In this document: positions 11,018 to 45,016 of the stretch, in pieces
Layout of the letters: each line of letters starts with the position of its first letter
Position numbering within the stretch: position 1 is the first letter of the stretch
Assembly (NCBI GenBank): GCA_024276465.1
Contig: JAJRXD010000021.1
Location: 1 to 45,035 of the forward strand
DNA: 45,035 nt
From: Deltaproteobacteria bacterium
GTDB taxonomy: Bacteria; Desulfobacterota; WTBG01; CAIYCZ01; CAIRTM01
Direction: 5' to 3'
Notes under the pieces: generated by a model
The model's database searches: none
What the model saw: the letters and a program-made list of their open reading frames with translations, nothing else
What the model was told of the DNA's origin: nothing
Program-made: the position numbers and the translations under genes

Positions 11018-11317
11018 TCCGGAATTTGCAGTTGGCATCTACTGAGGACAAAAATCTCTTGCTGTAAAGCTTGTTTCAGGATTTTGCTCCTCAACATATC
11101 TGTTGATATGCCTGCGTCACAAAATCGTTCCAACTGCACGTTTTGCTAAGGGGGGGCTTTTTCCCCTCGCTACGATCCCTGCTGCAAAATCCGGGTTTAA
11201 CCTTAGACCTAAGCAAACAAGCAGGCAACCCTCTTTGGCAAGGCGGAAAGATGTGGGTGATGTTTGCGATATCATGTTTTTATAGAATCGCGCAATTCAG
11301 GTTAAAATAATGCAGAC
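11018..11317 (+). other. 300-bp intergenic stretch carrying the 35-bp motif (11272-11306)
   Basis: No convincing gene is present; a 60-codon ORF at 11103-11285 has no family resemblance and low-quality composition. A G-run/C-run hairpin-like segment lies near 11149-11167. The text CCCTCTTTGGCAAGGCGGAA at 11229-11248 resembles CCCCCCTTGGTAAGGTGGGA at 13218-13238. Both precede a copy of the 35-bp motif (11272-11306 and 13241-13275) and a start codon 11-12 nt further on. The near-palindrome GAATCGCGCAATTC at 11285-11298 looks like an operator. Confidence 0.6.
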
Positions 11318-20516: not shown

Positions 20517-20570
20517 GGATAGCTGATTATGGTCCACAAAAGACACGAAAAGTACGAAAGAGAGTCAAGA

Positions 20571-24805: not shown

Positions 24806-24889
24806 TATTTTTTTAGTGACTCTTTTGTGTATAATGTAGCCTGTTTTTTTTCAAGAAATATTTAAGGAAATTATTTGGCAGGAGGCGCA

Positions 24890-28835: not shown

Positions 28836-29938
28836 TAGATGTGCAGGGTCTGAGCGTTAAGGCCGGAGATTTCCGGCTCCGTGACATTAATCTTGGGATT
28901 GAAGACAGTCGTTTCGGCGTTATACTTGGTCCATCGGGCGCAGGCAAGAGCCTGCTTCTTGAGTCCATAGTCGGATTGTGCAGCCCTGATCAGGGCAGGG
29001 TTGTGATCGGGGGGATAGATGTTACAAAGAGCAATCCGGAAGATCGGAACGTGGCTTATGTTCCCCAGGACATGACTCTTTTTCCGCATCTGAGTGTGCG
29101 GGGCAATCTCTGTTTCGGGGCTCAGGCGCGGCGCATGAGCAGTTCGGATATTAACATGCGTATGGAACAGCTTTCACAGCTGCTTGATATTTCACACCTT
29201 CTTGATCGCCTCAATCCAATGACTTTAAGCCATGGAGAGCAGCAGCGGGTTGCCATTGCAAGGGCACTTATGATTTTTCCCAGAGCAATACTTCTTGATG
29301 AGCCTTTTTCAGCTCTTGATGCCCTGCTTCGCCGTCAGCTCCAGCTCCAGCTGAAAAGGATTAACAGAGAGCTGAAGATTACCATCCTTCACGTAACACA
29401 CGACAGGGAAGAGGCCTTTATGCTGGGTGATAAAATCGGTATCATGATTGGCGGCAGGCTGGTTCAGGTTGGAAGCCGTGATGATATTTACTGCAGACCT
29501 GCAACAGTTGAGGCTGCCAGATTTCTCCTTAACCAGAATATTTTTATCGGGGAGGTGCTGGCCCGTGATGACCAGACCAGGACATTAACCCTGGGGGATG
29601 TATCAGGCCTGAACTTAAATGCTGTGGCATATAACGGGCTTAGACCTGGGGACATGGCACATTTTGGTATTCGTCCGGAAGAGATCATGGTGATCAGGCC
29701 CGGGATGGAACTGCGAAATCCTGTCCAGGACAATTTAATGACAGGGACAGTCGAGACGATCATGGAAAAGGGCGGGTCACATTTAATACTGGTCAGAATT
29801 TCAGAAATCGACCAGCCACTTGAAATAGATATTCCAAACTGTGCATTCAGAGATCTTGAGCTTGCAGAGGGCAAAACAATTCAGGTGTCCCTTAAAAAGA
29901 AGTCTGTCTGGACGATCCCCGCAAATTTTAGGTGCTGA
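28832..29938 (+). CDS. modC: Molybdate/tungstate ABC transporter ATPase
   Basis: A 368-residue ABC ATPase. Walker A is GPSGAGKS (residues 33-40), the Q-loop is YVPQDMTLFPHL, the signature reads LSHGEQQRVAIARAL in place of LSGGQ, Walker B is AILLDEPFSALDA, and the H-loop is HVTHD. After residue ~235 there is a TOBE-like domain (FGIRPEEIMV, then GTVETIMEKGGSHLIL), which in ModC/WtpC can bind oxyanion. It is the last gene of the mob-mod operon; a 102-bp gap with a regulatory site separates it from the redox island. Confidence 0.9.
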   Translation: MIDVQGLSVKAGDFRLRDINLGIEDSRFGVILGPSGAGKSLLLESIVGLCSPDQGRVVIGGIDVTKSNPEDRNVAYVPQDMTLFPHLSVRGNLCFGAQARRMSSSDINMRMEQLSQLLDISHLLDRLNPMTLSHGEQQRVAIARALMIFPRAILLDEPFSALDALLRRQLQLQLKRINRELKITILHVTHDREEAFMLGDKIGIMIGGRLVQVGSRDDIYCRPATVEAARFLLNQNIFIGEVLARDDQTRTLTLGDVSGLNLNAVAYNGLRPGDMAHFGIRPEEIMVIRPGMELRNPVQDNLMTGTVETIMEKGGSHLILVRISEIDQPLEIDIPNCAFRDLELAEGKTIQVSLKKKSVWTIPANFRC

Positions 29939-30040: not shown

Positions 30041-31888
30041 TTGAGCAAGGAAAGACCCAAACTCACAGTCGAAATTCCTGACAGCGAATACTGGAGACGA
30101 CTGATAAAATGTCAGGATGCCTGTCCTGTTCATACAGATGCCAGGGGATATGTCCGTGCAATAGCGCAGGGAGAGTATGAACAGGCATTTCTTATTGCCA
30201 GGGGGCCAAACCCGTTAGCATCAATTTGCGGAAGAATATGCCAGGCTCCATGCGAAGAATCCTGCCGCCGCGCATCTGTAGACGACCCTGTTGCCATCCG
30301 CGCTCTGAAGCGTTTTGCAACTGAGCGATTTGGAGCTGAAGCAGGGAAAAATGATCCAGCTTCAATATTGCACAGTGTGCGCAGTATTGCCTCGGAAAAC
30401 GCTGCAAGAGATGAACTGAGACTGATTGAATCCGGGCTGAAAAGCCATGGGCAGGTGCATGTTAAAGGACGGAAGGTTGCTGTGATTGGAGGAGGGCCGG
30501 CAGGCCTTGCATGCGCCCATGATCTTGCGCTTTATGGTTTTTCTCCTGTTGTTTTTGAGATGGAAGCAAAACCAGCAGGAATGCTGTACACCGGGATACC
30601 GGAGTTTCGTCTGCCGCGAAAAGTGATTGATGCAGAGGTCAGGGTTGTTGAGAGCCTTGGTGTTGAGATTCGATGTAACACAACCGTGGGTAAAGATATC
30701 AGGTTTGACGAAATAAGAGATAAGTTCGATGCAACAGTTATTGCTGTTGGGGCAAAAAATTCAAAAGAACTGGGAATTCCGGGGGAAGATGCAACCGGTG
30801 TGTTTGGCGGTGTGGAGTTTCTGAGAAAATGCTCGCTTGGTCAGGAGGTTGCTCTTGGAAAGCATGTTGTAGTTGTTGGCGGAGGCTTTACGGCTCTTGA
30901 CTGCTCCCGCTCTTCAGTAAGGTTTGGCGCTGGTGATGTTGTCACAGTTTTATATCGCAGAACACGTGATGAAATGCCGGTAACACAGTATGAGCTGGAC
31001 GAAGCTGCCGAAGAAGGAGTCGGTTTTGAATATCTTGTTGCCCCTCTATCTATTGAGAAAGATAATGAAGGCAAGGTGACCGGAATCCGGTTGCAGAGAA
31101 ACCGGCTTGGCCCGCCCGATGCAAGCGGACGGCAAAGACCTGAGCCTGTACCAGGTTCGGAATTTGTTCATCCATGTGATACTGTGATACGGGCGGTGGG
31201 ACAGGAATCTGACATGGACTTTATTGATCCTGAACGTGATGGTTTAAGCTTTAACAAGTGGGGCCTTATAGACTGTGATGAGGAAACCCTTGCTGTTGGT
31301 GCAGAGGGGGTTTTTCTGGCTGGAGATGCTGCTTACGGTACCAGACTGGTAATTGATGCTGTAGCCAGCGGGAAAAAAGCGGCTCGTTCTGTAAATCATT
31401 TTTTGTCAGGGGAAAAAACATGTCCGGAGCTCAAGCAGAGACATGAGGATATTGAAAATTATGGTCGTGAAACTGGTTATGAAAAAATTTCCCGAAAAGA
31501 AATTCCTGCTGTTGATAAATTTGAACGTATTACGGATCATACCATTACTGTAGAGGTCGGCTTTGATGAGCCCCTTGCACGTCAGGAGGCAAGTCGCTGC
31601 TTTGATTGCGGGGTTAATACGATTTTTGATGGCCAGAAGTGCATTTTATGTGGTGGGTGCGCTGATGTATGTCCCGCCAGATGTTTAAAGCTGGTGCCTA
31701 TTCGGGAGCTTGGTTTGACGGAAGTTCAAAATGAAACAGCAAAGCAGTGTGTTGGCGAAGAATGGAGGCAGGGGTCTGCCATAATTAAGGATGAAGAAAC
31801 CTGTATAAGATGCGGGCTTTGCTCCAAACGCTGCCCCACTGGTGCAATTACAATGGAGAGGATGTATTTTTCGGAGGAATGCTCATGA
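30041..31888 (+). CDS. GltD-like NAD(P)/FAD oxidoreductase with C-terminal ferredoxin domains, fused into a Rieske/cyt b operon
   Basis: A 615-residue cytoplasmic-type flavoprotein. The N-terminal GltD-like Fe-S domain has Cys 24, 28, 63, 67, 71 and 75 (CQDACPVHT; ICGRICQAPCEESC). FAD binding is VAVIGGGPAGLACA (~147-160), and a second Rossmann for NAD(P) is VVVVGGGFTALDCS (~280). AVGAEGVFLAGDAAYGTRLV is the conserved C-terminal FAD loop. Two 4Fe-4S motifs end the protein: CILCGGCADVCPARC and CIRCGLCSKRCPTG. TTG 30041 is supported by AGAGGA at 30029-30034. The stop overlaps the Rieske start. It likely exchanges electrons between NAD(P)H or ferredoxin and the b/c complex on the cytoplasmic side. 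Confidence 0.85.
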   Translation: MSKERPKLTVEIPDSEYWRRLIKCQDACPVHTDARGYVRAIAQGEYEQAFLIARGPNPLASICGRICQAPCEESCRRASVDDPVAIRALKRFATERFGAEAGKNDPASILHSVRSIASENAARDELRLIESGLKSHGQVHVKGRKVAVIGGGPAGLACAHDLALYGFSPVVFEMEAKPAGMLYTGIPEFRLPRKVIDAEVRVVESLGVEIRCNTTVGKDIRFDEIRDKFDATVIAVGAKNSKELGIPGEDATGVFGGVEFLRKCSLGQEVALGKHVVVVGGGFTALDCSRSSVRFGAGDVVTVLYRRTRDEMPVTQYELDEAAEEGVGFEYLVAPLSIEKDNEGKVTGIRLQRNRLGPPDASGRQRPEPVPGSEFVHPCDTVIRAVGQESDMDFIDPERDGLSFNKWGLIDCDEETLAVGAEGVFLAGDAAYGTRLVIDAVASGKKAARSVNHFLSGEKTCPELKQRHEDIENYGRETGYEKISRKEIPAVDKFERITDHTITVEVGFDEPLARQEASRCFDCGVNTIFDGQKCILCGGCADVCPARCLKLVPIRELGLTEVQNETAKQCVGEEWRQGSAIIKDEETCIRCGLCSKRCPTGAITMERMYFSEECS

Positions 31889-32349
31889 GTGAAATGCTTA
31901 CAAAACCCGTAAAGAGGAGAGATTTTTTAGGTATAGTTACCATTGGTACATTTGCTGTGGCCATGGCTGCGGCACTTGCTGGAATTCTTCGGTTTTTCCG
32001 TCCCACTGTTTTTTCGGAACTGTCAAAAAAATATAAAATTGGGAAACCAGGAGGATTTCCTTTAGGGGAAGTAAGAGTTCCGCCAGGCAGAAGTGTTTAC
32101 GTGTTTCATGATGAAAGCGGGTTCTATGCCATATCTTCCAGATGCACTCACCTTGGCTGTATTGTAAAGCGTGGTCACGATGAATTTTTATGTCCCTGCC
32201 ATGGCTCCAGATTCAAACTCAATGGTGATGTTATCAGCGGGGCTGCTACCAGAGCTCTGGACTGGTATGATGTGTCCATGGCCCCGGATGGACAGCTTGT
32301 TGTGGATGAAGGGAAAAAAGTAAAAAAGGGAACTGTTTTTTTTGCATAA
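31885..32349 (+). CDS. Rieske 2Fe-2S protein of a cytochrome bc-type complex
   Basis: A 154-residue membrane-tethered Rieske protein. It has a Tat-like N-terminus (KRRDFLGIVT) and one hydrophobic helix (~residues 15-36). The cluster boxes are CTHLGC (87-92) and CPCHGS (103-108): C87, H89, C103 and H106 bind the cluster and C92/C105 form the disulfide. The start ATG 31885 follows GGAGG at 31873-31877 and overlaps the upstream stop (ATGA). The protein takes one electron from quinol at the periplasmic side. It lies directly upstream of the cytochrome b gene, as in standard bc operons. Confidence 0.92.
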   Translation: MSEMLTKPVKRRDFLGIVTIGTFAVAMAAALAGILRFFRPTVFSELSKKYKIGKPGGFPLGEVRVPPGRSVYVFHDESGFYAISSRCTHLGCIVKRGHDEFLCPCHGSRFKLNGDVISGAATRALDWYDVSMAPDGQLVVDEGKKVKKGTVFFA

Positions 32350-32361
32350 GGGGGAATAAAA

Positions 32362-33894
32362 ATGGCTTCATTTAAAACATTTATTGAGGATGTTAAAAGG
32401 GTTCCATCAGAGTTCATGGAAAGCCTTTTCAGACATGGCCCCCCGGAAACTGACAGAACAAGATCAGAGGCTGTTTTTCACAACCTTTTTCTGCATATCC
32501 ATCCGGTGCGGGTTCACCGCTGGTCGCTGAAGTCAACACTTACCCTTGGGCTGGGTGTAATGTCTACAGCATCTTTTGTGATCCTGACTGCAACCGGTAT
32601 TTTGCTGATGCTTTACTACAAACCTTCCACTATTCTGGCCTATGATTCAATAAAGGATATCCACTTTGTGGTGCCGACCGGCCGGTTTATGAGGAATATG
32701 CACAGGTGGGGAGCGCACTTAATGGTGATAGCTGTTCTTTTTCACATGGCGCGTGTTTTCTTTACAGCTTCCTATAAATCCGCGCGCCGGTTTAACTGGG
32801 TTATTGGTTTAATGTTATTCATATTAACTCTGATGCTTTCCTTTACGGGGTACCTGCTGCCCTGGGACCAGGTAGCTTACTGGGCTATTACCATATGTGC
32901 TAATATTGCCCAGTCTCCAAGGGAGCTTACTGACGCCCTGCACATTACCGGGTTTTTCGATCCAGGCGGCCTGACCAAAACAATTCTGCTTGGTGGAAAC
33001 GAGGTAGGTGAAGATGCGCTTATCCGTTTTAACATGCTGCACTGTATTTTATTACCCCTGGTGATCTCATTTTTTATGGGCATACATTTTTGGCGCATTC
33101 GCAAAGACGGAGGCCTGGCCCGCCCTGAAGATGCTGATGATAAACTTGGCCCCCTGCCTGACGGTGAAAAGCCAGACTTTACACAGGCTCCTCAAAAGAC
33201 TTATGGGCTTATGGCTTTTGTGAGGGGGTCATCTCCTGTGGTTGGGAAAGGGCCGGAGCATACTGTGCCGGCATGGCCCCATCTGTTTTACGCTGAGCTT
33301 GCTGTTTTTATGATAAGCTTTGTGATTATGCTTGCGTTGTCTTTGCTGATGGATGCTCCTCTGAAGGAGCTTGCTAACCCGCTTGTGCCTGAAAATCCGG
33401 CAAAAGCTCCATGGTATTTTCTGGGATTGCAGGAGCTTGTATCCCATTCCGCTTTTATGGGAGGGATAGGTGTTCCGGTTATTGCTCTTTTAGGACTGTT
33501 TCTTATCCCATATCTTGACAAGGAAAAAACGCCTGAAGGCATATGGTTTGCCGGAAAGGGTGAAAAGTCTGTAACTGTTAAATCAGCTGTATTCGGGCTG
33601 ACAAGCGTAATTTTGATAGAGATGTTTACTATCAGATTCGGGTGGTTGAGAGACTGGATGCCGGGCATTCCTCAACTGATTGCCATACTTGTAAACCCGG
33701 GTTCAGTTTTAACACTGATATATATGCTATGGTCAATCAGGATTTTCCGCCAGACAGGATCCATGCGTCTTGGGGCAGTTGCGATTTTTACATGTTTTCT
33801 TGCGGGATTTTTGGTGCTGACTGTCATAGCGGTACAGTTCAGAGGCCCAAACTGGGATTTTTACTGGTGGCCTAACCTGTGGCCTAATCACTGA
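32362..33894 (+). CDS. Cytochrome b subunit (b6-type N-domain plus C-terminal subunit-IV-like domain)
   Basis: A 510-residue membrane protein with about eight to ten helices. The haem ligands are H114/H128 (spacing H-x13-H) and H227/H242 (H-x14-H). The second spacing is that of b6-type cytochromes rather than classical mitochondrial-type b. PWDQ (167-170) stands in the helix C region. The quinol-site motif of the C-terminal part is PENPAKAPWYFLGLQELVSH, with PAW in place of PEWY. A long soluble linker (~250-300) joins the two parts. AGGGGG precedes ATG 32362. It oxidises quinol or quinone at two sites across the membrane. Confidence 0.9.
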   Translation: MASFKTFIEDVKRVPSEFMESLFRHGPPETDRTRSEAVFHNLFLHIHPVRVHRWSLKSTLTLGLGVMSTASFVILTATGILLMLYYKPSTILAYDSIKDIHFVVPTGRFMRNMHRWGAHLMVIAVLFHMARVFFTASYKSARRFNWVIGLMLFILTLMLSFTGYLLPWDQVAYWAITICANIAQSPRELTDALHITGFFDPGGLTKTILLGGNEVGEDALIRFNMLHCILLPLVISFFMGIHFWRIRKDGGLARPEDADDKLGPLPDGEKPDFTQAPQKTYGLMAFVRGSSPVVGKGPEHTVPAWPHLFYAELAVFMISFVIMLALSLLMDAPLKELANPLVPENPAKAPWYFLGLQELVSHSAFMGGIGVPVIALLGLFLIPYLDKEKTPEGIWFAGKGEKSVTVKSAVFGLTSVILIEMFTIRFGWLRDWMPGIPQLIAILVNPGSVLTLIYMLWSIRIFRQTGSMRLGAVAIFTCFLAGFLVLTVIAVQFRGPNWDFYWWPNLWPNH

Positions 33895-33901
33895 GGATGT
33901 C

Positions 33902-36694
33902 ATGGAAAACAAACAATCAAGAAACATTAAAGTAATTATTCTGGTATGCTCGGTGTTAACTTTATTTTTGCTGGCAATAGCAACAGTCCAGGAAAACATA
34001 TCAGTTGAATGGAAAGATTATCAAAGGGCATACTGTACCGAGCTGCTTGCACAGACGCGGACCGGCGGGGACCGGGCAGCTGCAGATATAAACATTAAAA
34101 TCAGGCAGCTGTATTTGCCCCAGCTGAACCGTACTGACCGGTGCATAACATGTCATATTGGTATTGATAACCCTGCTCTGGAGGATGCTGATCAGCCAAT
34201 AAGATCCCATAGCGTAAATTATTTTGAGCATCACCCCATAAGTAAATTCGGATGCACAGTATGTCATGAAGGACAGGGCAGAGCAACGACCTCGGAGGAA
34301 GCCCACGGAGAAGTAGAATTCTGGCCCAGTCCACTTCTGAGGGGAAAACTTGTTTACACAAGCTGCGGGCGCTGCCACTATGATAATGATCTTTATGGCG
34401 CAGACAATGACCTTTTTGTTCCATGGAAAGATCCTCCTCCGATCATGAAGGATGAATTAAAATCTTCAGTGGCTGGAGGAAAGAATATTGCGAGCGGCAA
34501 ACAACTGGTGTTGTCATCAGGATGTCTTGGCTGTCACAAGTACCGCGGGCGTGGTGGGACTGTAGGACCGGATATTACCTATGTTGGGGACAAAAGCGAA
34601 CATGGTTTTGATTTTACAAACATTGAGGGTGAACATACAGTACAGCAGTGGCTGTTTGAACACTTTAAAAATCCTGACAGGCTTTCACCCGGTACTCTGA
34701 TGCCTGCCATGGATCTGAATGATCAGATGGCCCGCGATTTAACCATGTATATGCTGAGTCTGCACAGAAAAAGCATGCCGGCATCCCATACTCCCGTACC
34801 TCCGAGACGAAATGGAGAGATGGCAGGCGGGGACCAGCTGTACAGCATGTTTTGCAATTCATGTCACGGCAGAGACGGGCAGGGAAGCACGGTCAGAGAC
34901 CCTGTTTCTGAAACTGCAGCCGATGTTCCCCCGGAACTGATGGTTCCATCGCTGAACAATCCGGATACTCAGGCCATGGCCAGCAGGGAGTATTTTGAGT
35001 ATATAGTGAAACACGGTCGCCCGGATACCACAATGATTCCATGGGGAACAAAAAACGGAGGGGGGCTGAGGTCTGATGAAATAGAGCGTATTGTATCTTT
35101 TATGCGTACGTGGGATGGCCCCGAACCTGATGTTACAGCAGTTTCTGCTTTACGAGGAAATGCGAAGGTGGGCAGGATTTTTTACAACAGGTACTGTTAT
35201 GCGTGTCATGGGACAAAGGGGGAAGGAGGGATCGGCACAACGCTAAATGCCCCGAGTTTTTTAGCTGTTGCCTCGGATGAGTTTCTCTGGCGCACACTTA
35301 CAGAAGGCAGGCCTAATACTGCAATGCCGGGATGGAAGCAGTTTGATTCCCAGCAGATCAGCGATCTGATTGCGTATATGCGGGGCTGGCACGCGCAGAG
35401 AAACAGCAAAAAGGATGTGCTTGATATGGTTGTGTTGGCAGAAAACGGCAGCCCTGTTTCATCAGAAATTGGCAGGACGATCTATAAAGCAAACTGTGTG
35501 ATGTGCCACGGCTTATCAGGTGAAGGTGACCTTGCCACATCTATTTCAACGCAGGAATTTTTAACCATTGTGGACAATTCCTACCTTTACGATACCATTG
35601 TGCTGGGCAGGCCGGGAACGGGAATGCCTGCCTGGCGTCACTTGTCAAGTCAGGACATGGCATCTCTGATTGCTTATTTGCGAACCTGGCAGAAAGAAAA
35701 AACCCGCATCCCAGCTGATATCCAGTTAAGGGGCGATTGGGATACCGGGGAGATATTGTACTCAAGAAACTGTTCAGGCTGTCATGGTGGCAATGCAGAA
35801 GGTGGAGTAGGTCCCCAGCTTAACAATCCTGTGTTTCTGCAGACAACAACCGACGTATTGCTGTATGAGTGGGTGGCAAATGGAAAAACAGGAACACAGA
35901 TGCGGGCTTTCATCAGGGGCAGTCAGGGAATGGCAGATCTGAGTCATAGCCAGATTAAAGATATTATATCATTTGTCAGGTCCTTTGAATGGCGTTCCAG
36001 GGTGTCTGTGATGCGGTCACCTAACGGCCGGCCTGAGCTGGGAAGACTGTGGTATGCTGTTATGTGCACTTCATGTCATGGAGACAACGGAGAGGGGGCA
36101 AGTGGTCCCTCGCTTTCCAATAAATCATTTCTGCACGCAGCATCGGACGGATACCTGATGGCAACGATGTCTCTTGGCCGTGACGGTACTGAGATGCGCC
36201 CGGTAAAGAAAAGCCCTCAGTCCATACTGTCACTAAGCAGTGACGAGGTAAATGATCTTGTCGCATACCTGCGTTCGTGGGAAATATTTCCACCTGATTT
36301 TCAAATACCCCACAATTTTATTATCCCGTGGGACTTGACGCGTGGAAAAAAATTATATGTATCAAACTGTTCAGGATGCCATGGGCTGAATGGCAAATCA
36401 GAGATTTATGAGCCCGGACTTTCAGCCTGGGCTCCGTCTTTGAATAATGAGGGGTTCCTTGCAGCAGCAACCGACGGTTTTATACAGGCAACAATCGTCC
36501 GGGGTCGCACGGGGACTGCAATGCAGGCTTTTGGAATTGGCATGCAGGGGCTGGTCGATTTATCCAGGGAAGAACTTGACGACATTGTGGCGTATATAAG
36601 GCAATGCTCAACAGTGGCTTCATCTCCAATGACAATTCCTGCACAGAAAACAAGAGTTGTTATAGGTAATGCAGAGGCAAAAGATAACGGTTGA
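33902..36694 (+). CDS. Membrane-anchored cytochrome c with ten CxxCH motifs (three plus seven monohaem modules)
   Basis: A 930-residue periplasmic cytochrome. One N-terminal helix (residues ~9-28) anchors it. A first segment has CITCH (81), CTVCH (118) and CGRCH (155). Seven class-I-like monohaem modules follow at ~208, 318, 432, 532, 624, 722 and 823, about 100 residues apart. Each is followed by a Met candidate for the sixth ligand (LMPAM, TMIPW, TAMPGW, TGMPAW, TQMRAF, TEMRPV, TAMQAF). The modules are clearly related to each other (repeated CHGxxGEGG and LIAYxRxW elements), so they arose by tandem duplication. It lies after Rieske and cytochrome b and should be the c-type electron exit. 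Its stop TGA is also the first bases of a miniature inverted-repeat element. Confidence 0.9.
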   Translation: MENKQSRNIKVIILVCSVLTLFLLAIATVQENISVEWKDYQRAYCTELLAQTRTGGDRAAADINIKIRQLYLPQLNRTDRCITCHIGIDNPALEDADQPIRSHSVNYFEHHPISKFGCTVCHEGQGRATTSEEAHGEVEFWPSPLLRGKLVYTSCGRCHYDNDLYGADNDLFVPWKDPPPIMKDELKSSVAGGKNIASGKQLVLSSGCLGCHKYRGRGGTVGPDITYVGDKSEHGFDFTNIEGEHTVQQWLFEHFKNPDRLSPGTLMPAMDLNDQMARDLTMYMLSLHRKSMPASHTPVPPRRNGEMAGGDQLYSMFCNSCHGRDGQGSTVRDPVSETAADVPPELMVPSLNNPDTQAMASREYFEYIVKHGRPDTTMIPWGTKNGGGLRSDEIERIVSFMRTWDGPEPDVTAVSALRGNAKVGRIFYNRYCYACHGTKGEGGIGTTLNAPSFLAVASDEFLWRTLTEGRPNTAMPGWKQFDSQQISDLIAYMRGWHAQRNSKKDVLDMVVLAENGSPVSSEIGRTIYKANCVMCHGLSGEGDLATSISTQEFLTIVDNSYLYDTIVLGRPGTGMPAWRHLSSQDMASLIAYLRTWQKEKTRIPADIQLRGDWDTGEILYSRNCSGCHGGNAEGGVGPQLNNPVFLQTTTDVLLYEWVANGKTGTQMRAFIRGSQGMADLSHSQIKDIISFVRSFEWRSRVSVMRSPNGRPELGRLWYAVMCTSCHGDNGEGASGPSLSNKSFLHAASDGYLMATMSLGRDGTEMRPVKKSPQSILSLSSDEVNDLVAYLRSWEIFPPDFQIPHNFIIPWDLTRGKKLYVSNCSGCHGLNGKSEIYEPGLSAWAPSLNNEGFLAAATDGFIQATIVRGRTGTAMQAFGIGMQGLVDLSREELDDIVAYIRQCSTVASSPMTIPAQKTRVVIGNAEAKDNG

Positions 36695-36854
36695 TGGCGT
36701 CGTAAAAAGTCCAATCTACTGCATTGTAGTATTTTTTTTGCTGCTCGAAATATTAGATATATGCCTTCGCACCAAAAAAACACTACGCTTTGTATATTGA
36801 ACTTTTAACTTAGCCATCTGAAACAACCTTGATTAGCTTTTTACGAGTTTATCA
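36692..36854. mobile_element. Miniature inverted-repeat element between the cytochrome c and NapA genes
   Basis: The ends TGATGGCGTCGTAAAAAG (36692-36709) and CTTTTTACGAGTTTATCA (36837-36854) are inverted repeats matching at 14 of 18 positions. A second, looser inverted pair lies inside (TGTAGTATTTTTTTTG against CAAAAAAACACTACG). It has no ORF. The family type is familiar from deltaproteobacterial genomes, from memory and not checked. It fills most of the 220-bp gap and separates the b/c operon from the NapA operon. Confidence 0.72.
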
Positions 36855-36857
36855 CGG

Positions 36858-36906
36858 TTGACGAATTTGTAAAAATAACCATTTACTACCTGAATTTTGC
36901 AGGAGG
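36858..36906 (+). promoter_or_regulatory. Candidate promoter and strong ribosome site for the NapA gene
   Basis: TTGACG (36858-36863), an 18-nt spacer and TTTACT (36882-36887) form a plausible sigma70 promoter just outside the miniature element. AGGAGG at 36901-36906, 8 nt before ATG 36915, fixes the start. An inverted copy of the TGCAAAATTCAGGT core seen at 24788-24801 overlaps it (36888-36902). Confidence 0.45.
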
Positions 36907-36914
36907 ACTAAAGC

Positions 36915-39638
36915 ATGGAAAGACAAAGAAGGAGGCCAATTAAATTTAACAGAAGAGAATTTTTAAAAGTAGCTGCAAAGACAGGTGTTGTGTGTACTGC
37001 GTGCAGTCTGGCGCCGGCTGAGTTAATCCAGGCCCAGAACTCACCTCCCTCAGGAGTCAGGCTGCTGCAATCGGCGTGTCCATACTGTGGCGTAGGATGC
37101 GGAACTCTTATTAAGGAACAGGATGGAAAAGTTATAGGAATGGTGCCGGATAAAAAGCATCCGACAAACAGGGGGATACAGTGCATTAAAGGACTTAATG
37201 CGCATGAACCCATTTACCGTGACCGGCTTACTTATGCGCTTGTACGAAAGGACATGAGCGATCCTCTTCAAGGGTATGTTTCGAAAACCAAGGGACGTTT
37301 TGACGATGATGTGTTCAGAAAAGTTTCTCTGAAAGAAGCTGAAGAGATCGCAGTTGAAAGGACTGCCGAGATAATCAGGAAAAAAGGCGGGAATCACGTT
37401 GGACTCACCGGATCAGGCCAGCTTACCATGGAAGCACAGTGGATTGAAAATCAATTGATGAAAGCCGTAATAGGCAGCAATTCAATTGAAGCTAATGCCC
37501 GTATGTGTATGACCTCTGCAGTAACCGGATATTTTCATTCGTATGGCTCTGATGCCCCGCCGACAAGTTATGAAGACATTGAGGAAGCCGACTTTATAAC
37601 GTTCTGGGGGCATAATGCCAGAGAGGCCCATCCCATCCTGTTCTGGAGAGTAGCTGATTACAAAAAAAGAAAGGGCATCCCGACACTGGTTTCCGACCCC
37701 CGCAGAACCGGGACTGTTATAGGTCTGGAATCGATTAATCCCCGAAACAGCTATCATATTCAGACCCTGAATGGAGATCTGAGCTATCATAATGCAATTG
37801 CATATGTGCTGCTGACTAAATATCCGGATGCGTGTATGCCGGAAAAATGGCTTGAGGAGAAAACAGATGGGTGGAAAGAGTACGTTCATGGTGTTAAGGC
37901 CAGGTATTCACCGGAGCAGGTGGTCAGAAACCTGAAGATGCTGGACAATGGCAGGGTTACGGTTGAGGGGATCGAAAAAATTGCCGAAGAATGGGCCAGA
38001 GCAAGCGTGCTGGGACGGCAGAGAGGCCGAGGCGGTGTGCTGACATTCTGGGGTATTGGTTATAACCAGATGCTTCACGGTCAGCACAATACCATAGGAC
38101 TTATAAATCTGCACTTGTTGACTGGTAATCTGGGTCGTCCCGGCTGTGGAAGCCACTCCCAGACCGGTCAGCCGAATGCCATGAGCGAGCGCCTTATGGG
38201 AGGGCTGACAGGCCGCCTTCCTTTTAACCAGCCCCTTAAAAATGTAAAGTGGCGTAACCATATTGCAGATTCGTGGGGGGTTTCCCACGACCGCCTTGCG
38301 CAGACTGCAGTACTTAAAAATCCGGGTATGGTTTTAGGTATGATGGAAAGGGCACTAAAGGGCGGTTTGGATGCCATGTATTTTATTTATACTACGCATG
38401 TGCATCTGCCTGATGTTGATACACTGGTGAGGCCGGCACTGACCAGGATGTTTGTGGTTGTCCAGGACATTTACCGCCATGCGCCTAATAACCTGTATGC
38501 TGACGTTATATTCCCGGCAGCAACATGGGGTGAGTGGACAGGAGGAACCTACATACAGTCCGAGCGCAGGTTGTATATCTGTGATGGCACGAAAAATCCG
38601 CCTGCAAACTGTATTCCTGACATGGATCTTGCCATTGACAAGGGGAGGGGCATTGCAAAGAAGCTGGGCATGGATCCGGATAAGATATTTCCTTTCAAAA
38701 AGAAAATAAAGCTTGGAAACGGTCTTATGGCATATGATCCGGAGGATGTGTTCAGGACTATTGTTAAGGCAAGCAAGGGATCTGACTCCGATCTTACCGG
38801 AATGCTTGATGTTGAGAAAGAGGATGGAATCGGGCTTTATGACCAGCTTCGCCGTTTGCGTGGTGTCCAGTGGCCGGCACCTACTGCAGAGATTGCGCGC
38901 AGGGGCGGTACCCCGAGGCGGTATCTTGGACAGGAGGGATGGGCAGGAAAGCCATATGGAGCATTCAGACGGCCGAATGGAAAGGCAAAATTCAAGCTGT
39001 GTGAACAGGATTACACAAAGCTCAAAGCAGTCACAGGCAAACTTATGAAGTATGGGCACAAAGACCGTCCTGGCGCAGGTCCTTTCTTTATTGATGAAAT
39101 TGCAGATGCTAAAGCCAAGGGGCGGACAAACCTTCTGGTTCAGGCCAGAGATGCCGGTTTAACTCCTGAACTTCCTGATCTCGATGTTTACAACAATAAA
39201 AGCAAGGGTCTTGGTTATCATAAAAAAACAGACAAATATCCTTTCTGGCTTTCTCTTGGCATTGTGTACGAGCATTTCCATACTTCCAAAACAATTCGGG
39301 GAGCAACTACATTAAAACTTGTTCCTGAGCAGTACGTTGAAGTAAATGAAAAGGATGCAGAACGTTACGGGCTTAAAGACAGTGAAAAGGTGCGAATTGT
39401 CACAAGAAGAGGAAGTTATGAAGCTCGTGTCTCTGTTGGTACAAACAGTATGATTAGACCAGCACGCAGTGAAGTTCCCCCGGGATTACTTTTTAGTCCC
39501 TGGAACCTTTCCGTGGCAGACAGTGCTGATCCGGCAAAGAACAGGTGGATGGTTAATGCTGTCAGTCACCGCGCATGGGATCCTGTGAGCGGCCAGGCAG
39601 ATTACAAAAAATCAGCAGCCAGGATTGAGAGGATATAA
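36915..39638 (+). CDS. napA: NapA-type periplasmic molybdopterin oxidoreductase (nitrate reductase-like)
   Basis: A 907-residue bis-MGD enzyme. The Tat signal is NRREFLKVA (residues 12-20). The 4Fe-4S ligands are C55, C58, C62 and C90 (CPYCGVGC ... GIQCIKG). The Mo ligand is C198 in NARMCMTSAV. Nap-like landmarks follow: EEADFITFWGHNAREAHPIL, the LLTGNLGRPGCGSHSQTGQP segment and VIFPAATWGEWTGGTYIQSE. E. coli NapA is 828 residues; the extra length is mostly C-terminal. Nitrate is the likely substrate, but closely related branches use other oxyanions, so the name is provisional. mobA and the Mo transporter lie upstream and NapG/NapH-like genes follow. No NapB, NapC or NapD is seen. Confidence 0.85.
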   Translation: MERQRRRPIKFNRREFLKVAAKTGVVCTACSLAPAELIQAQNSPPSGVRLLQSACPYCGVGCGTLIKEQDGKVIGMVPDKKHPTNRGIQCIKGLNAHEPIYRDRLTYALVRKDMSDPLQGYVSKTKGRFDDDVFRKVSLKEAEEIAVERTAEIIRKKGGNHVGLTGSGQLTMEAQWIENQLMKAVIGSNSIEANARMCMTSAVTGYFHSYGSDAPPTSYEDIEEADFITFWGHNAREAHPILFWRVADYKKRKGIPTLVSDPRRTGTVIGLESINPRNSYHIQTLNGDLSYHNAIAYVLLTKYPDACMPEKWLEEKTDGWKEYVHGVKARYSPEQVVRNLKMLDNGRVTVEGIEKIAEEWARASVLGRQRGRGGVLTFWGIGYNQMLHGQHNTIGLINLHLLTGNLGRPGCGSHSQTGQPNAMSERLMGGLTGRLPFNQPLKNVKWRNHIADSWGVSHDRLAQTAVLKNPGMVLGMMERALKGGLDAMYFIYTTHVHLPDVDTLVRPALTRMFVVVQDIYRHAPNNLYADVIFPAATWGEWTGGTYIQSERRLYICDGTKNPPANCIPDMDLAIDKGRGIAKKLGMDPDKIFPFKKKIKLGNGLMAYDPEDVFRTIVKASKGSDSDLTGMLDVEKEDGIGLYDQLRRLRGVQWPAPTAEIARRGGTPRRYLGQEGWAGKPYGAFRRPNGKAKFKLCEQDYTKLKAVTGKLMKYGHKDRPGAGPFFIDEIADAKAKGRTNLLVQARDAGLTPELPDLDVYNNKSKGLGYHKKTDKYPFWLSLGIVYEHFHTSKTIRGATTLKLVPEQYVEVNEKDAERYGLKDSEKVRIVTRRGSYEARVSVGTNSMIRPARSEVPPGLLFSPWNLSVADSADPAKNRWMVNAVSHRAWDPVSGQADYKKSAARIERI

Positions 39639-39649
39639 TATAACGATAG

Positions 39650-40255
39650 ATGAACCGCCGCGTTTTTTTAAAAAATGCTATTGCTGTAAGTGGAGCTGCC
39701 ATAGGCTATTCAGTCTGGATGAGCCCTCTGGCAGCCACGTCCAGGAAGAACAGGCAATTCCTGCGTCCACCAGGAGCTTTGCCTGAACCTGAATTTGTTT
39801 CGCGGTGCATCCAGTGCCTTCGCTGTGTTGATGCGTGTCCAAACCATGCTATAATAACACTTTCCGAGTCATCAGATAAACTTTTGCAGGGTACGCCGAC
39901 CCTGAAACCACGCAGACAGGCATGTATGCTCTGCAATAAAATCGAAGGTGAGTTTCTCAAGTGTACAGAAGCTTGTCCGACCGGAGCTCTTCAGCCAGTG
40001 AGCAAGGATCCTTCAGGAATTCAGCAGAAAGTAGCAATAGGTACTGCTGAGATTGATAAAGCCCTGTGTTACTCCTACAATAATTATATCTGCGGGTCAT
40101 GTTATCGCGCATGTCCATTTCCCGGGAAAGCCATGACCCTTGGAATGTGGGAAAAGCCTGAGGTACATGCAGAATTCTGTGTTGGGTGCGGATTGTGTGA
40201 ACGTTCATGTATTATGTATCCCCAGGCAATAAGGGTAAAACCAAGGGGTTGTTAA
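39650..40255 (+). CDS. napG: NapG-like Tat-exported polyferredoxin, first copy
   Basis: A 201-residue periplasmic or membrane-bound protein with a Tat-like N-terminus (NRRVFLKNAIAVSG) and the NapG/MauM landmark RPPGALPEPEF. Four 4Fe-4S sites follow: CIQCLRCVDACP, CMLCN...CTEACP, CGSCYRACP and CVGCGLCERSC. In Nap systems NapG passes electrons from quinol, via NapH, towards NapA. It starts 11 nt after the NapA stop, and its own stop overlaps the start of the next gene by one base. It is shorter than typical NapG (~230 residues). Confidence 0.85.
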   Translation: MNRRVFLKNAIAVSGAAIGYSVWMSPLAATSRKNRQFLRPPGALPEPEFVSRCIQCLRCVDACPNHAIITLSESSDKLLQGTPTLKPRRQACMLCNKIEGEFLKCTEACPTGALQPVSKDPSGIQQKVAIGTAEIDKALCYSYNNYICGSCYRACPFPGKAMTLGMWEKPEVHAEFCVGCGLCERSCIMYPQAIRVKPRGC

Positions 40256-40980
40256 TGGGGGTCACGCGCAGGGAGTTTTTAAAAAAAATATTCAACATTT
40301 CAGGTTCTGCTGCTGTAATAGTGTCAGCCTTTGCTGCAGGACACCTGCTGTTAAAAGAACGTTTTTCACGCTATCCTGCAATACCGGGCAGGAGGGTTGG
40401 AAGTGGTTTTCGGTTGATACGGCCACCCGGTGCTTTGGGGGAAAAATTGTTTCTTGGCGCCTGCATACGGTGTTATCGCTGTCAGGATGCCTGTGATATT
40501 GGCGCTATTCAATTTTTTACCGAGGCTGACCGAAGATATTATCACACGCCCTACATTGATCCTTCCATAAAGGCATGCAATCTGTGCATGAAGTGCACTA
40601 AAATATGTCCAACAGGTGCTCTGATTCCAATGGAAGTTGAATCAAGGGCAAAGGTCAACATGGCTTCTGTTGAAATCAGAAAGGACCTGTGCCTTTCCTA
40701 TAAGGCAAAAGCAATTCGCAATGAACAGGCTTTGCTGATGGAAGCTGGAAGAGAGCCAACAGAGTCTCAGGCTATAGTTGAGCGGCGGGGACCGTGTGGC
40801 GAATGTTACATGTTCTGCCCTTTGCGTAAACGAGCAATTAAGCTTGAGCCGGGATCTTTTCTTGCCCCTGTTGTTATTGCTGAAAATTGTGTCGGGTGTG
40901 GAATGTGTGAAGAAATATGCAGGGTAATGGTACGTGGTATGCCGGCCATCAGGGTTTTAGCAACACGTAAAAAGGCTTAA
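40255..40980 (+). CDS. napG: NapG-like Tat-exported polyferredoxin, second copy
   Basis: A 241-residue paralogue of the preceding gene. The Tat motif is TRREFLKKIF; RPPGALGEKLFLGACIRC is the NapG landmark. Fe-S motifs are CIRCYRCQDACD, CNLCMKCTKICP, CGECYMFCP and CVGCGMCEEICR. ATG 40255 follows AAGGGG (40243-40248) and overlaps the upstream stop; an earlier in-frame start at 40207 lies inside the first copy and is rejected. A tandem NapG pair next to one NapA is unusual. One copy may serve the NapH-like protein at 41116 and the other the one at 42646; that is inference. Confidence 0.85.
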   Translation: MGVTRREFLKKIFNISGSAAVIVSAFAAGHLLLKERFSRYPAIPGRRVGSGFRLIRPPGALGEKLFLGACIRCYRCQDACDIGAIQFFTEADRRYYHTPYIDPSIKACNLCMKCTKICPTGALIPMEVESRAKVNMASVEIRKDLCLSYKAKAIRNEQALLMEAGREPTESQAIVERRGPCGECYMFCPLRKRAIKLEPGSFLAPVVIAENCVGCGMCEEICRVMVRGMPAIRVLATRKKA

Positions 40981-41080
40981 CAAAATCTAAACCGAAATAT
41001 TTTTTACATTACAGGCACTGCAGCAGCTTTTCAATTAAATCTGCTCAAAATTAGTGCTGTGACAGTCTTTTGTGAAGAGG

Positions 41081-41112
41081 ATATTTTGAGAATCGCACAA
41101 TTCAGGCAAAAG
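41081..41112 (+). promoter_or_regulatory. Recurrent motif upstream of the NapH-like gene
   Basis: ATATTTTGAGAATCGCACAA followed by TTCAGGCAAAAG is a diverged copy of the 35-bp motif. It ends 3 nt before ATG 41116, so it covers the ribosome-binding region. The other 100 bp of the 135-bp gap 40981-41115 show nothing recognisable. Confidence 0.4.
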
Positions 41113-41115
41113 TAA

Positions 41116-42645
41116 ATGACAGGACAGAAACCACAACATATTATGCTGCAACTGTTGCGACGCTGCAGCCAGATATTCATAGTTGCAGTTATTATAGCAC
41201 TTCCGTTTTTCAGCCTGTATGAACACTATCGTGCAGCAAATGCCATTGATGACATTCAGTTAATGTCAGGGCTGAGGGGAAAGGTCCTGGCACTAATTGA
41301 CAACAGGTTCTCTCTAACAGATGACCCTCAGGTGATCCTCGAAAATTTTAAGGGTACTCTGTGGTCAATGCGGTTTGCCGGCATAGAAATAAGCGACCCT
41401 CTTGCAGTGGCAGAGATGACAGCATCTTCCGGGACTGTTTACATTCCATTCATACTGTCAGCTGTTATTCCGGTCATGCTCACATTGATATTGGGCCGTA
41501 TTTTTTGCAGCTGGATCTGTCCTGCAAACCTGATGTTTGAAATTGCAAACAAGCTGCGCTCCATACTGAAATTTGCAGAGATACAGACACCTGAGATTGA
41601 ATTTTCCCTTAACAATAAATATCTAATCCTTGGGACAGGGCTTATTGTCGCTTCAATAGTAAGCCAGCCTTTATTGTCTTTCATCTATCCTCCTGCTGTG
41701 TTAAGCAGGATGACACACGCTGTGATATTTGGGACAGCATCTGCCGGAATGATAATTTTAATGCTGTTGCTTGCAGGGATAGAAGTTTTTATCTCACCCA
41801 GGTGGTGGTGCAGAACCATGTGTCCTGGTGCCGCTCTTTATGCGCTTATAGGCTGGCCCCGCCTGCTCAGGGTCAGGATTGCGGAGCATCGCTGTAACAA
41901 ATGTGGAAAGTGTGAAAAAGTCTGTGAACCTGGAATCAATCCTGTTGCAGATTCAGATGGTATTGAGTGTACTAACTGTGGTAAATGCATAAAAGTTTGC
42001 ACAGAGAGTGCTCTTAAATTCAGCGTGGGACTGCCGCCAATTAAAAGAAATTTGCGCACGCACGTAAAAAAACTGTCAAATGTTGTTTTGTTCTCAGGAA
42101 TTGCTGTTATGCTCTTTCTGGCATTGCCGCCCCCTGCCTGTTGCCATCACATTCTGGGCTTACCGCATTACTCATACAAGGAAAACTATCCACAGGCCCC
42201 AACTCTTGAATACCCTGCGTCTTCAGGCCCATATGATGTGCTGCTTACAAGTTATCCGGGAAAACCTGTTCCAAAGGAGGCAGCTTCGCTTTCGTTTTAT
42301 ATTAAAAACAGAATTACCGGGGAGCCGTATGACAAGCCCATATCCATTCGGGTGTTAGAGACATTTACTTTTGGCAGATCCAGTGTAGTGCTCAAGCCGA
42401 CGGTATGTGAACCTTTCGAGAGGCCATATAAGCTGTATGTAACTTTTCCTGATGACGGGGAGTATGTTGTGGAGCTGATGATGGATGTGGAGGGAAGATC
42501 TGAAGTAATTCCATTTCTGCTGATAGCCGGTGAGCCTTCTGCAGCCACGTCCGTGCTCATCACGGCAGGTGTTCTTCTGATACTGTTTATTATTACAGTA
42601 CGGGCGATTAAGATTAAACGTGCACGTCATACTGCAGGTGCTTAG
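41116..42645 (+). CDS. napH: NapH-like membrane polyferredoxin with extra C-terminal periplasmic domain
   Basis: A 509-residue membrane protein. The NapH core has an N-terminal helix (~20-37), two helices around GRIFCSWICPANL (~125-138), a further pair, and WWCRTMCPGAALYALIG (~235-250). Two 4Fe-4S motifs follow, CNKCGKCEKVCEPG and CTNCGKCIKVCTES. Ordinary NapH ends near residue 290. Here another helix (~325-340), a ~140-residue beta-rich domain (PTLEYPASSGPYDVLLTSYP ... FPDDGEYVVELMM) and a final helix (~480-500) are added. The N-terminal loop (~40-105) is also long. It should pass electrons from quinol to the NapG proteins. Its stop directly abuts the next start. Confidence 0.82.
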   Translation: MTGQKPQHIMLQLLRRCSQIFIVAVIIALPFFSLYEHYRAANAIDDIQLMSGLRGKVLALIDNRFSLTDDPQVILENFKGTLWSMRFAGIEISDPLAVAEMTASSGTVYIPFILSAVIPVMLTLILGRIFCSWICPANLMFEIANKLRSILKFAEIQTPEIEFSLNNKYLILGTGLIVASIVSQPLLSFIYPPAVLSRMTHAVIFGTASAGMIILMLLLAGIEVFISPRWWCRTMCPGAALYALIGWPRLLRVRIAEHRCNKCGKCEKVCEPGINPVADSDGIECTNCGKCIKVCTESALKFSVGLPPIKRNLRTHVKKLSNVVLFSGIAVMLFLALPPPACCHHILGLPHYSYKENYPQAPTLEYPASSGPYDVLLTSYPGKPVPKEAASLSFYIKNRITGEPYDKPISIRVLETFTFGRSSVVLKPTVCEPFERPYKLYVTFPDDGEYVVELMMDVEGRSEVIPFLLIAGEPSAATSVLITAGVLLILFIITVRAIKIKRARHTAGA

Positions 42646-44832
42646 GTGGATAGAAAACGGGGAATAATGGGCCGATTTATGATTGCATTTCCGTATCTTT
42701 TGTTTGCTTTTATGATAGCAATTATCATATGGTCAAATGTCCGGGATCATCAGATATCAGCATTTAACTACTCCGAGACGATCCAAACCATGGCATCAAT
42801 TGGTGATGGAAAAGCTGTTGTCAGACAATCTGCTGATTCCAGTGTTTGTCAGAACTGTGGAAAGGATATTGTTGAGGATGAAAGCAATAAGGATAAGGCA
42901 GCCGGGTCAACATTCAGGTTTTGCTCCACACAATGCAGGGTCTCATATCTGAAAGATCGTATCAGCAGGATAACTGATAAAAAATCAAGCAGGATAGTAG
43001 ATCCTGTGTGCGGGATGGATGTAAATCCGTCGTGGGGGATAACCTTCAGGTATGAGGGTGTGACCTTTCATTTCTGTACGGAAATGTGCAGGAATGCTTT
43101 TGCTGCTGATCCGCTTTCACATATTGCTGTGAGGTGCATGGTTTGCCGAAATCCTGTTGTTGCATCATCAGCTCTTCCTGCCACCTACCTTGGGGAGATC
43201 TATTACCTCTGTTCGGATGATCACCGCAGTGAATTCAAATCTGATCCTGCCAGATATTTTATGCACAGTATGTGGGGTATCCCCAACTGGCTTTACTATA
43301 TTTCAATTGCACTGGTGCTTATTGTATCTTTTCTCATGTTTGAGGGGGCTTCTGCATACAAAAAAAAACCCGGATCCTTCACAAAATCAGCTTGTACCGG
43401 AACCAGGAGATCCGATCGTATTGACATCCTGAAGGTTCGCTTTGTAAGGGCGGTTCTCTGCTCAAGACCCTTCCGTTTTTTTCTACAGGTTTTCATGGCT
43501 GTTGCCTTTATGGCTATAATAGCTGCAGGGCTTTTTGGCAACCAGAATCCTGCTTTAAATATTGCACCAATTCTTACGTGGACAATATGGTGGTGCGGGC
43601 TCGTTGTTCTTATCATGTTTGCAGGTAAGGCATGGTGTTACATATGCCCGTGGGATGCAATAGCCTCATGGATAGAGAGGCTTTCCTTGTGGAAGAAGAC
43701 AGAAAGCGGCTTAGGGCTTGGCATTCCATGGCCCCGGGTGATACAGAATATTGCTCTTGCAACAATACTTTTTGTTGCTCTTACCTGGATAGAGATTGGT
43801 TTTAATGTAACCATGCGGCCAAGGTTTACAGCATATCTGGGGCTTGGAATGCTGGTGCTGGCGATAGTGTCTGCTTTTCTGTTTGAGCGAAAAAGTTTCT
43901 GCCGTTACGGCTGTCTGGTGGGACGTGTAAGCGGACTGTATGCTCTTTTTTCAGGGTTGGAAATTCGCCATAAAAGTTCCAAGGTATGCAAAACGTGCAG
44001 GGGTAAAGAATGCTACAATGGCAGCAAGTCTGCCTATGGGTGTCCAACTTTTGAACGGCCTTCTAAAATGATGACAAACACCTACTGTATTCAGTGTTCA
44101 GAGTGTCTGCAGTCGTGTCCCCATAATAACATGGCCGTGAACCTGAGGCCGTGGGGTGAGGACCTCAAGGTTGATGGCAAGTCCCGTACTGATGAGGCAT
44201 ATATGGCTCTTTTAATGGTTGCGATTACCGGTTTTCACGGCCTGACAATGACCCCTGTATGGGCAGGCTTGACAGAATCGATTGAAACACTTTTTCCTCT
44301 TGGACGCATAGGTGCTTTCAGTTTGTCAATGTTTACGATTATGAGTTTCCCGGTTGTGATTTATGCTGTTTTTATTTGGATGTCCCGCAGGATAGCTTTA
44401 AAGATTGATCCTGAAATTGCAAATCGCCTGTCATATCATGATTATTTTGTGAAATATGCTTATTGTATGCTGCCTATTGCACTTTTTTACCATCTTGCGC
44501 ACAACCTTGAACATTTGTTAATGGAAGGCCCCAAGATATTTGCTCTTATAAGTGACCCCTTTGGCTGGAACTGGAACCTGTTCGGAACAGCAGGACTTTC
44601 TATCCCCCCACTTGCATCATTGAGCGTGTTATGGATTCTGCAGGTAATTTTAGTCGGGGTGGGTCATATATACAGTTTATGGGCAGCCCGGAAGATCAGC
44701 AGACATACTTTCAAAAAAGACGTTGCAGCACTGCGCGGACAGTGGCCCATGCTTGCTGTTATGATAGTATTCAGTATTTTCAGTCTGTGGCTTTTGAAAC
44801 AGCCAATGGAGATGAGGACATCTGCAATGTAG
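42646..44832 (+). CDS. TRASH/YHS-type metal-binding domains fused to a NapH-like membrane polyferredoxin
   Basis: A 728-residue protein. One helix (~10-30) leads to three small Cys modules: CQNCGKDI...FCSTQC (68-97), a YHS-type DPVCGMDV...FHFCTEMC (119-148) and CMVCRNPV...YYLCSDDH (164-193). Such TRASH/YHS modules bind copper or other soft metals. A helix (~213-235) precedes a NapH/CcoG-like part: CYICPWDAIASWIERL, SFCRYGCLVGRVSGLYALF, CKTCRGKECY and CIQCSECLQSCP. More helices make up the last ~200 residues. GTG 42646 directly follows the upstream stop; ATG 42667, with CGGGGA before it, is an alternative start. Metal sensing or delivery coupled to membrane electron transfer is inferred. Confidence 0.75.
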   Translation: MDRKRGIMGRFMIAFPYLLFAFMIAIIIWSNVRDHQISAFNYSETIQTMASIGDGKAVVRQSADSSVCQNCGKDIVEDESNKDKAAGSTFRFCSTQCRVSYLKDRISRITDKKSSRIVDPVCGMDVNPSWGITFRYEGVTFHFCTEMCRNAFAADPLSHIAVRCMVCRNPVVASSALPATYLGEIYYLCSDDHRSEFKSDPARYFMHSMWGIPNWLYYISIALVLIVSFLMFEGASAYKKKPGSFTKSACTGTRRSDRIDILKVRFVRAVLCSRPFRFFLQVFMAVAFMAIIAAGLFGNQNPALNIAPILTWTIWWCGLVVLIMFAGKAWCYICPWDAIASWIERLSLWKKTESGLGLGIPWPRVIQNIALATILFVALTWIEIGFNVTMRPRFTAYLGLGMLVLAIVSAFLFERKSFCRYGCLVGRVSGLYALFSGLEIRHKSSKVCKTCRGKECYNGSKSAYGCPTFERPSKMMTNTYCIQCSECLQSCPHNNMAVNLRPWGEDLKVDGKSRTDEAYMALLMVAITGFHGLTMTPVWAGLTESIETLFPLGRIGAFSLSMFTIMSFPVVIYAVFIWMSRRIALKIDPEIANRLSYHDYFVKYAYCMLPIALFYHLAHNLEHLLMEGPKIFALISDPFGWNWNLFGTAGLSIPPLASLSVLWILQVILVGVGHIYSLWAARKISRHTFKKDVAALRGQWPMLAVMIVFSIFSLWLLKQPMEMRTSAM

Positions 44833-44983: not shown

Positions 44984-45016
44984 CTTCATTTTCTTTGACG
45001 GCCAAAGAAAATGAAG
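44984..45016. repeat. Inverted repeat at the right edge
   Basis: CTTCATTTTCTTTG (44984-44997) and CAAAGAAAATGAAG (45003-45016) are perfect 14-bp inverted repeats around ACGGC. The sequence after it (GCAAAAGAAAGGCCGCCC) suggests a dispersed repeat running out of the window. Confidence 0.7.

Follow-up and report, generated by a model that had tools for sequence, protein, structure and literature searches.

Nine genes on a deltaproteobacterial contig place a Rieske/cytochrome b complex, an NAD(P)-linked flavoprotein, a multihaem cytochrome and a NapA-like molybdoenzyme next to each other, and the question they raise is whether these proteins form one electron-transfer system and, if so, which way the electrons run. 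The contig (GenBank JAJRXD010000021.1 of assembly GCA_024276465.1, Desulfobacterota; 45,035 nucleotides, the whole of which is called the window here) carries the genes as co-directional plus-strand open reading frames (ORFs) at positions 30041-44832. With a probability of roughly 45%, the island encodes a single respiratory module in which menaquinol oxidation would be split between a branch leading to the NapA-like enzyme, probably to nitrate, and the reduction of NAD(P)+. In hand are gene content, homology, conserved ligands, a fused cytochrome, conserved gene order and correlated divergence; complex formation, the direction of electron flow, nitrate as substrate and bifurcation are what we infer from them.

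The original prediction, made from the nucleotide sequence alone, had described nine consecutive plus-strand genes, closely packed, and all ORFs were recovered where it had placed them. The intergenic gaps are 12, 7, 220, 11, 135 and 0 nt, and the remaining two junctions overlap. The true start of the Rieske gene is probably at 31879 or 31885, about 70 nt inside the listed ORF start (31810), and that of the second napG-like gene at 40255, 48 nt inside its listed start (40207); with these later starts both overlaps shrink to a few bases, which makes the junctions tight. Pfam and NCBIfam assignments agree with the names given before: a GltD-like FAD/NAD(P) protein with FeS clusters, a Rieske protein, a b6-type cytochrome b, cytochrome c repeats, a molybdopterin oxidoreductase, two NapG, one NapH, and a YHS domain joined to NapH. 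None of the island proteins reached the curated cut-offs of the named nap equivalogs in NCBIfam.

Genes one to four have their homologs in the Kuste4569-4574 and Kustd1480-1485 complexes of the anammox bacterium Kuenenia stuttgartiensis, whose genome was located via its Rieske sequence at 100% identity and for which all proteins of both clusters were compared. The GltD-like subunit (30041-31888; 615 aa) is 37-41% identical over its full length (E values down to 1e-139) to L124_9808 and L125_3541, which are the NAD(P) subunits in the two Kuenenia clusters; its FeS cysteines are kept, 17 of them in 29/29 homologs, and align in Kuenenia as well. The Rieske protein (31885-32349) is 33-39% identical to the Kuenenia Rieske proteins, has Kuste4569 (9rk4) and Kustd1480 (9rk3) as its best matches among PDB sequences, and shares with Kustd1480 the Ser and Phe tuning pair, present in all 30 homologs; the potential of Kustd1480 is +335 mV (PMC12954380). 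Cytochrome b (32362-33894; 510 aa) is 45-49% identical to its Kuenenia counterparts, and over its C-terminal half it corresponds to subunit IV, for which Kuenenia has separate genes. The haem ligands H114, H128, H227 and H242 are present in 33/33 sequences, as is the N-terminal H45, which aligns, together with an Arg and a Lys near the haem propionates, with His43/His62 of Kuenenia, the proposed ligand of a novel interface haem b that is itself only predicted there (PMC12954380). Both systems thus have Rieske protein, b6-type cytochrome b, subunit IV, NAD(P)/FAD/FeS subunit and multihaem cytochrome c in one cluster. Peculiar to the island are the fusion of the b6 part to subunit IV, a cytochrome longer by six monohaem domains and the loss of the haem-cn cysteine, which makes the complex a variant of the known anammox type and not an identical member; to judge from these comparisons, it is not a new kind. 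A bc complex with an NAD(P) subunit, which had been called rare, is already known from anammox bacteria (PMC12954380), and the one encoded here is homologous to it. The island has its NapA-like enzyme where the Kuste4569-4574 cluster has the HAO-like octahaem protein of Kuste4574, and Kustd1480-1485 is without an assigned partner.

The GltD-like subunits fall into two subtypes by their nucleotide motif, YRRTRDEMP in the window, in G021/L072 and in Kuenenia, and an LES type in most other copies. In proteins of the GltD type an RR motif usually goes with NADP binding, so the redox nucleotide may differ between copies or have switched between NADP and NAD. The ExtPQ selenite/tellurite operon was considered as another relative and rejected: only cytochrome b and, weakly, cytochrome c score with its models NF040969 and NF040970, under the cut-offs (235.3 against 290 and 61.8 against 150 bits).

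What may tie this complex to the molybdoenzyme is the fourth gene (33902-36694). As had been counted before, its product has exactly ten CxxCH motifs, and all ten are kept in 39/39 full-length homologs. Its N-terminal part, with four haems, matches Kuste4573 (4e-10), and residues 61-445 match Kustd1485 (4e-36); six monohaem domains follow, each of which keeps one Met, the likely sixth ligand. At two loci, L053 and L071, the cytochrome is a six-haem protein, and no GltD, Rieske or cytochrome b homolog was found in the DNA retrieved around them; the stand-alone hexahaem protein of L053 aligns with residues 310-900 of the window cytochrome at 39% identity. Haems 1-4 lie in a part that is similar to the anammox subunit, and the hexahaem part stands alone beside NapA elsewhere; the ten-haem protein is thus a fusion, which is the strongest sequence argument for a physical connection of the Rieske/b half to the NapA half. 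By sequence, the wiring of the one to the other is well supported. Haems with His/Met ligation usually have high potentials, and the six conserved Met residues suggest that this holds for the monohaem domains, which would suit nitrate (+420 mV) better than an acceptor of low potential. In G242 and G016 the cytochrome has two haems. A tetrahaem gene for a donor like NapM, as in the NapB-less NapMAGH type of Desulfovibrio and Caldithrix, was not found in the clusters, where the repeat proteins have ten, six or two haems. A cytochrome b-Rieske-multihaem cluster on an Aureibacter plasmid was dismissed as a relative because its cytochrome could not be aligned with that of the island.

The fifth gene (36915-39638) encodes a putative molybdenum-bis(molybdopterin guanine dinucleotide) enzyme of 907 aa with a twin-arginine translocation (Tat) signal. 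It had been called NapA-type, and this stands in part: the closest sequence and, in an AlphaFold model, the closest fold are those of Desulfovibrio desulfuricans NapA, and the 4Fe-4S cysteines, the lysine relay K92, the Mo-coordinating C198, M199, D213 and R426 are conserved. The model is of moderate quality (mean predicted local distance difference test score 70, active-site loops low) and served for fold confirmation alone. The enzyme is not a canonical NapA, however, as the models TIGR01706 and NF010055 failed (276.8 against 930.55 and 300 against 904 bits). In a tree whose references were E. coli NapA, plasmid Nap and Nas, Desulfobacterota-type relatives and Fdh, the NapA-like enzymes of the module loci all fall into a single clade (Shimodaira-Hasegawa-like approximate likelihood ratio test support 100). 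Its stem, 3.2 changes per site long, lies next to Nap/Nas, and the branches are so long that the exact joining point is uncertain. The module enzymes share the sequence TGQPNAM followed by a family-specific SERLMGG.

The usual partners of NapA are largely missing. NapB, NapC and NapD had been reported as missing from the window, and none was found in it. NapB and NapD were not found in the rest of the genome, a draft of 181 contigs, either, where the NapC family gave just short fragment matches near the cut-off; NapB is also absent from 27 of the 30 other module genomes, so that the NapA-like enzyme needs another haem donor. Four genes of conserved position follow instead: two for NapG-like ferredoxins with Tat signals (39650-40255, below the NCBIfam NapG/MauM cut-off, and 40255-40980, assigned by NCBIfam), one for a NapH-like polyferredoxin (41116-42645, below the NapH cut-off) and one for a membrane protein combining a YHS (TRASH-like; PF04945) domain with a weak NapH match (42646-44832). 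The NapH-like protein has a C-terminal extension of about 170 aa without a Pfam match, which in the L071 region 10407-12034 is apparently a separate small gene. The extension and the YHS protein hint at a role in metal handling or maturation.

The arrangement is not confined to this genome. A scan of 84,980 species genomes gave 59 related loci, and when all genes were searched against the loci with tblastn the order GltD-like, Rieske, cytochrome b, multihaem c, NapA-like, NapG, NapG, NapH, YHS-NapH was identical everywhere. The order rests on tblastn since a simple gene caller that was also tried picks antisense ORFs in GC-rich contigs. The complete set is present in 23 loci, the window included; no gene is misplaced in the approximately 60 loci, and incomplete ones are mostly truncated by contig ends. 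This conservation far exceeds chance. According to the record names the carriers belong to Planctomycetota, Elusimicrobiota, Wallbacteria, Latescibacterota, Hydrogenedentota, Verrucomicrobiota and deltaproteobacteria, although individual assignments may be wrong as the loci come from metagenome-assembled genomes. Pairwise distances of NapA correlate with those of each partner (Mantel r 0.71-0.95, p ~0.0005; lowest for GltD), which agrees with co-inheritance, although common descent by itself would produce a correlation too. In an even sample, 14/392 Planctomycetota genomes carry this NapA, and among 297 genomes of the window's phylum a close relative occurs only in the window's genome and five others (three of one other family with 79% NapA identity, two more with about 53%) and is absent from the five other genomes of the window's own family in that sample. 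Together with the higher G+C content of the module (46.6%, against 40.0% in the left part of the contig) this absence fits lateral gain. Contamination was considered, but the gene at 24875, the single one checked, has relatives of 50-60% identity in the genome's own family, and the contig is probably genuine. So far, no description of this gene combination has been found in the searchable literature, outside of which most subscription papers and preprints lie. The module is real and conserved and the kinds of its components are known; what looks new is their combination, together with the fused cytochrome and the clade of NapA-like enzymes.

Elusimicrobia-type loci lack the four Rieske/b genes and keep the NapA-NapG-NapH-YHS core unchanged. 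Downstream of YHS-NapH these loci encode a six-haem QrcA-like protein, an ActB-like protein (QrcB and QrcC fused) and an NrfD-type membrane protein (L057, 18195-22094; L085, 17768-22769; also L055, L063, L066, L070 and L075), by homology an alternative-complex-III or Qrc-like unit. This unit, another quinol:cytochrome c route, takes the place of the Rieske/b genes but belongs to an unrelated protein family without Rieske, cytochrome b or NAD(P) subunit and is not in the window. Quinol-oxidizing parts of either kind have apparently been swapped around the core. As NapG-NapG-NapH-YHS stay with NapA under either complex, their role is probably in its maturation or in direct electron supply to it, and not that of the main wire.

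How, then, would the electrons run? In the reading favored here, the anammox-type complex would oxidize menaquinol at its outer site. One electron would pass via the high-potential Rieske cluster to haems 1-4 of the cytochrome, then through the six His/Met monohaem domains to the periplasmic NapA-like enzyme, which would use it most likely to reduce nitrate to nitrite. The second would enter the b haems and move on, via the additional haem b that is proposed for the dimer interface, into the FeS chain of the GltD-like subunit, and from there through FAD to NAD(P)+. In this way menaquinol would reduce NAD(P)+ against the potential gradient, drawn by the reduction of the oxyanion. The standard potentials are -75 mV for menaquinone and +420 mV for nitrate (PMC6195509), and -320 mV for NAD(P) (PMC12954380). 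From 0.495 V downhill and 0.245 V uphill a surplus of 0.25 V per menaquinol remains (about -24 kJ/mol), which makes bifurcation thermodynamically possible. With ubiquinol, at approximately +100 mV, the same sum is unfavorable. The original prediction had linked quinol and NAD(P)H to periplasmic oxyanion reduction through the b/c complex; that linkage gains support from the conserved order in several phyla, the fused cytochrome and the correlated divergence, while nitrate and bifurcation are the parts we infer. Two of the findings that the prediction had named as speaking against it did not turn up: the genes are neighbors in other genomes too, and no napB or napD was found elsewhere in this one. 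We put forward only tentatively, and with less confidence than the module itself, that this is a cross-phylum electron-bifurcating complex of nitrate respiration, in which menaquinol makes NAD(P)H directly at the expense of nitrate reduction in the same assembly.

Several observations weigh against this picture. The haem-cn cysteine (WCMGG in Kuenenia) is missing from the module cytochromes b, where LGLG or GLG is aligned and C478 is the only conserved Cys; the NADP-type RR motif is lost in most homologs; and bifurcation is a proposal for the Kuenenia complexes too (PMC12954380). The large distance of the NapA clade from characterized Nap makes its substrate uncertain. The main weakness of the nitrate assignment is the small number of nitrite reductases: NrfA is present in only 3/30 other module genomes, and no NirK scored above the cut-off in the module genomes. 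The NirS search was uninformative as no positive control matched. If nitrate is the substrate, nitrite would be the end product in most carriers, unless they have a nitrite reductase of another kind. NrfA is absent from the window's genome. In favor of nitrate, it is present in the three same-phylum genomes with 79% NapA identity, and at one locus, L075, a nosZ-nosD-ABC-nosL-like group lies just upstream.

The leading rival, itself unlikely, keeps the wiring and does away with bifurcation: a proton-motive Q cycle would feed NapA as its sink, and the GltD-like subunit would pass electrons from NAD(P)H to the quinone/b-haem side, or run in reverse only under a proton-motive force. There is precedent for this. 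In Campylobacter jejuni, Nap depends on the bc complex QcrABC, electrons passing electrogenically from menaquinol to the periplasmic enzyme, yet there Nap and the bc complex are ordinary ones, encoded in separate gene clusters and without an NAD(P) subunit (PMC6195509). Among published nap clusters that include Rieske and cytochrome b genes, the nearest parallel found is that of Caldithrix abyssi (Cabys_2564-2557), where they lie among napA-napG-napH without NapB or NapC and have been proposed to feed NapA; this cluster, described as organized like that of Desulfovibrio, differs by a NapM tetrahaem donor and an adjacent eHao, and neither an NAD(P) subunit nor a ten-haem fusion has been described for it (PMC5317091). 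A Rieske/b complex has also been proposed to feed extracytoplasmic nitrate reduction by Methanoperedens and haloarchaeal Nar, the Methanoperedens cluster even encoding a NapH-like protein, but the enzyme is of the NarG type and no NAD(P) subunit has been described (PMC4683180). Moreover, the alternative-complex-III-like unit of the Elusimicrobia-type loci serves the same role without an NAD(P) subunit. Against a plain Q cycle stand the NAD(P) subunit with its FeS chain and the His of the extra haem, all strictly conserved, and the missing haem-cn cysteine, which suggests that the inner quinone site is altered.

Somewhat less probable again is that the same complex serves other chemistry, with another high-potential oxyanion such as selenate, chlorate or iodate being reduced, or an oxidase feeding electrons back to NAD(P)+. 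The single deep clade with its very long stem outside Nap and Nas, the SERLMGG sequence and the scarcity of canonical nitrite reductases would all be compatible with this; retention of every Nap catalytic residue checked, the closeness to NapA in fold and sequence, the nosZ group beside one copy and NrfA in the closest genomes of the phylum argue for nitrate. That the genes are mere neighbors in a co-transferred redox island, with NapGH feeding NapA and the Rieske/b-NAD(P) complex working independently, is very improbable, for although NapGH has been proposed as an alternative donor in Caldithrix (PMC5317091) and NapG, NapH and YHS accompany NapA in both quinol-complex backgrounds, the ten-haem fusion holds a domain found alone beside NapA elsewhere, the order is fixed in several phyla and the absence of NapB calls for another haem donor.

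Should the bifurcating module be confirmed, it would point by analogy to the driving reaction of the anammox NAD(P)-linked Rieske/b complexes, whose downhill partner, and with it their role, is uncertain; for Kustd1480-1485 no downhill reaction has been proposed so far. In this module a complex of that type shares a gene unit with a particular high-potential reductase in organisms other than anammox bacteria, which opens the idea of bifurcation to tests with a defined set of proteins. The deep clade next to Nap/Nas, which occurs in genomes from groundwater, vents and other environments, would also be missed by surveys relying on the cut-offs of NapA models.

Just upstream of the island, at 26604-29938 on the same strand, lie mobA-, modA-, modB- and modC/wtpC-like genes (NCBIfam), plausibly for molybdenum cofactor and molybdate/tungstate supply and outside the conserved unit; the cofactor genes moaA and moeA are found near some other copies too. 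Many planctomycete copies have a gene for an Rrf2-family regulator just before gltD, and in several a hemerythrin-domain protein is encoded after the cluster; examples of such accessory genes lie at L046, 2239-2694, and L036, 18291-18893. Identification of the regulator as the nitric oxide sensor NsrR was dropped as evidence, only the Rrf2 superfamily scoring above the cut-off. Promoter matches were at the level of shuffled sequence and terminator matches just slightly above it. The left part of the contig (219-18851) is taken up by a large polysaccharide/glycosyltransferase gene cluster, and between this and the module a gene for a PDDEXK nuclease of the YhcG/DUF1016 family is located (20529-21671). 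Just past the module, near the contig end, there is a strong inverted repeat, CTTCATTTTCTTTGGCCGTCAAAGAAAATGAAG (44984-45016), possibly a repeat at which the assembly broke.

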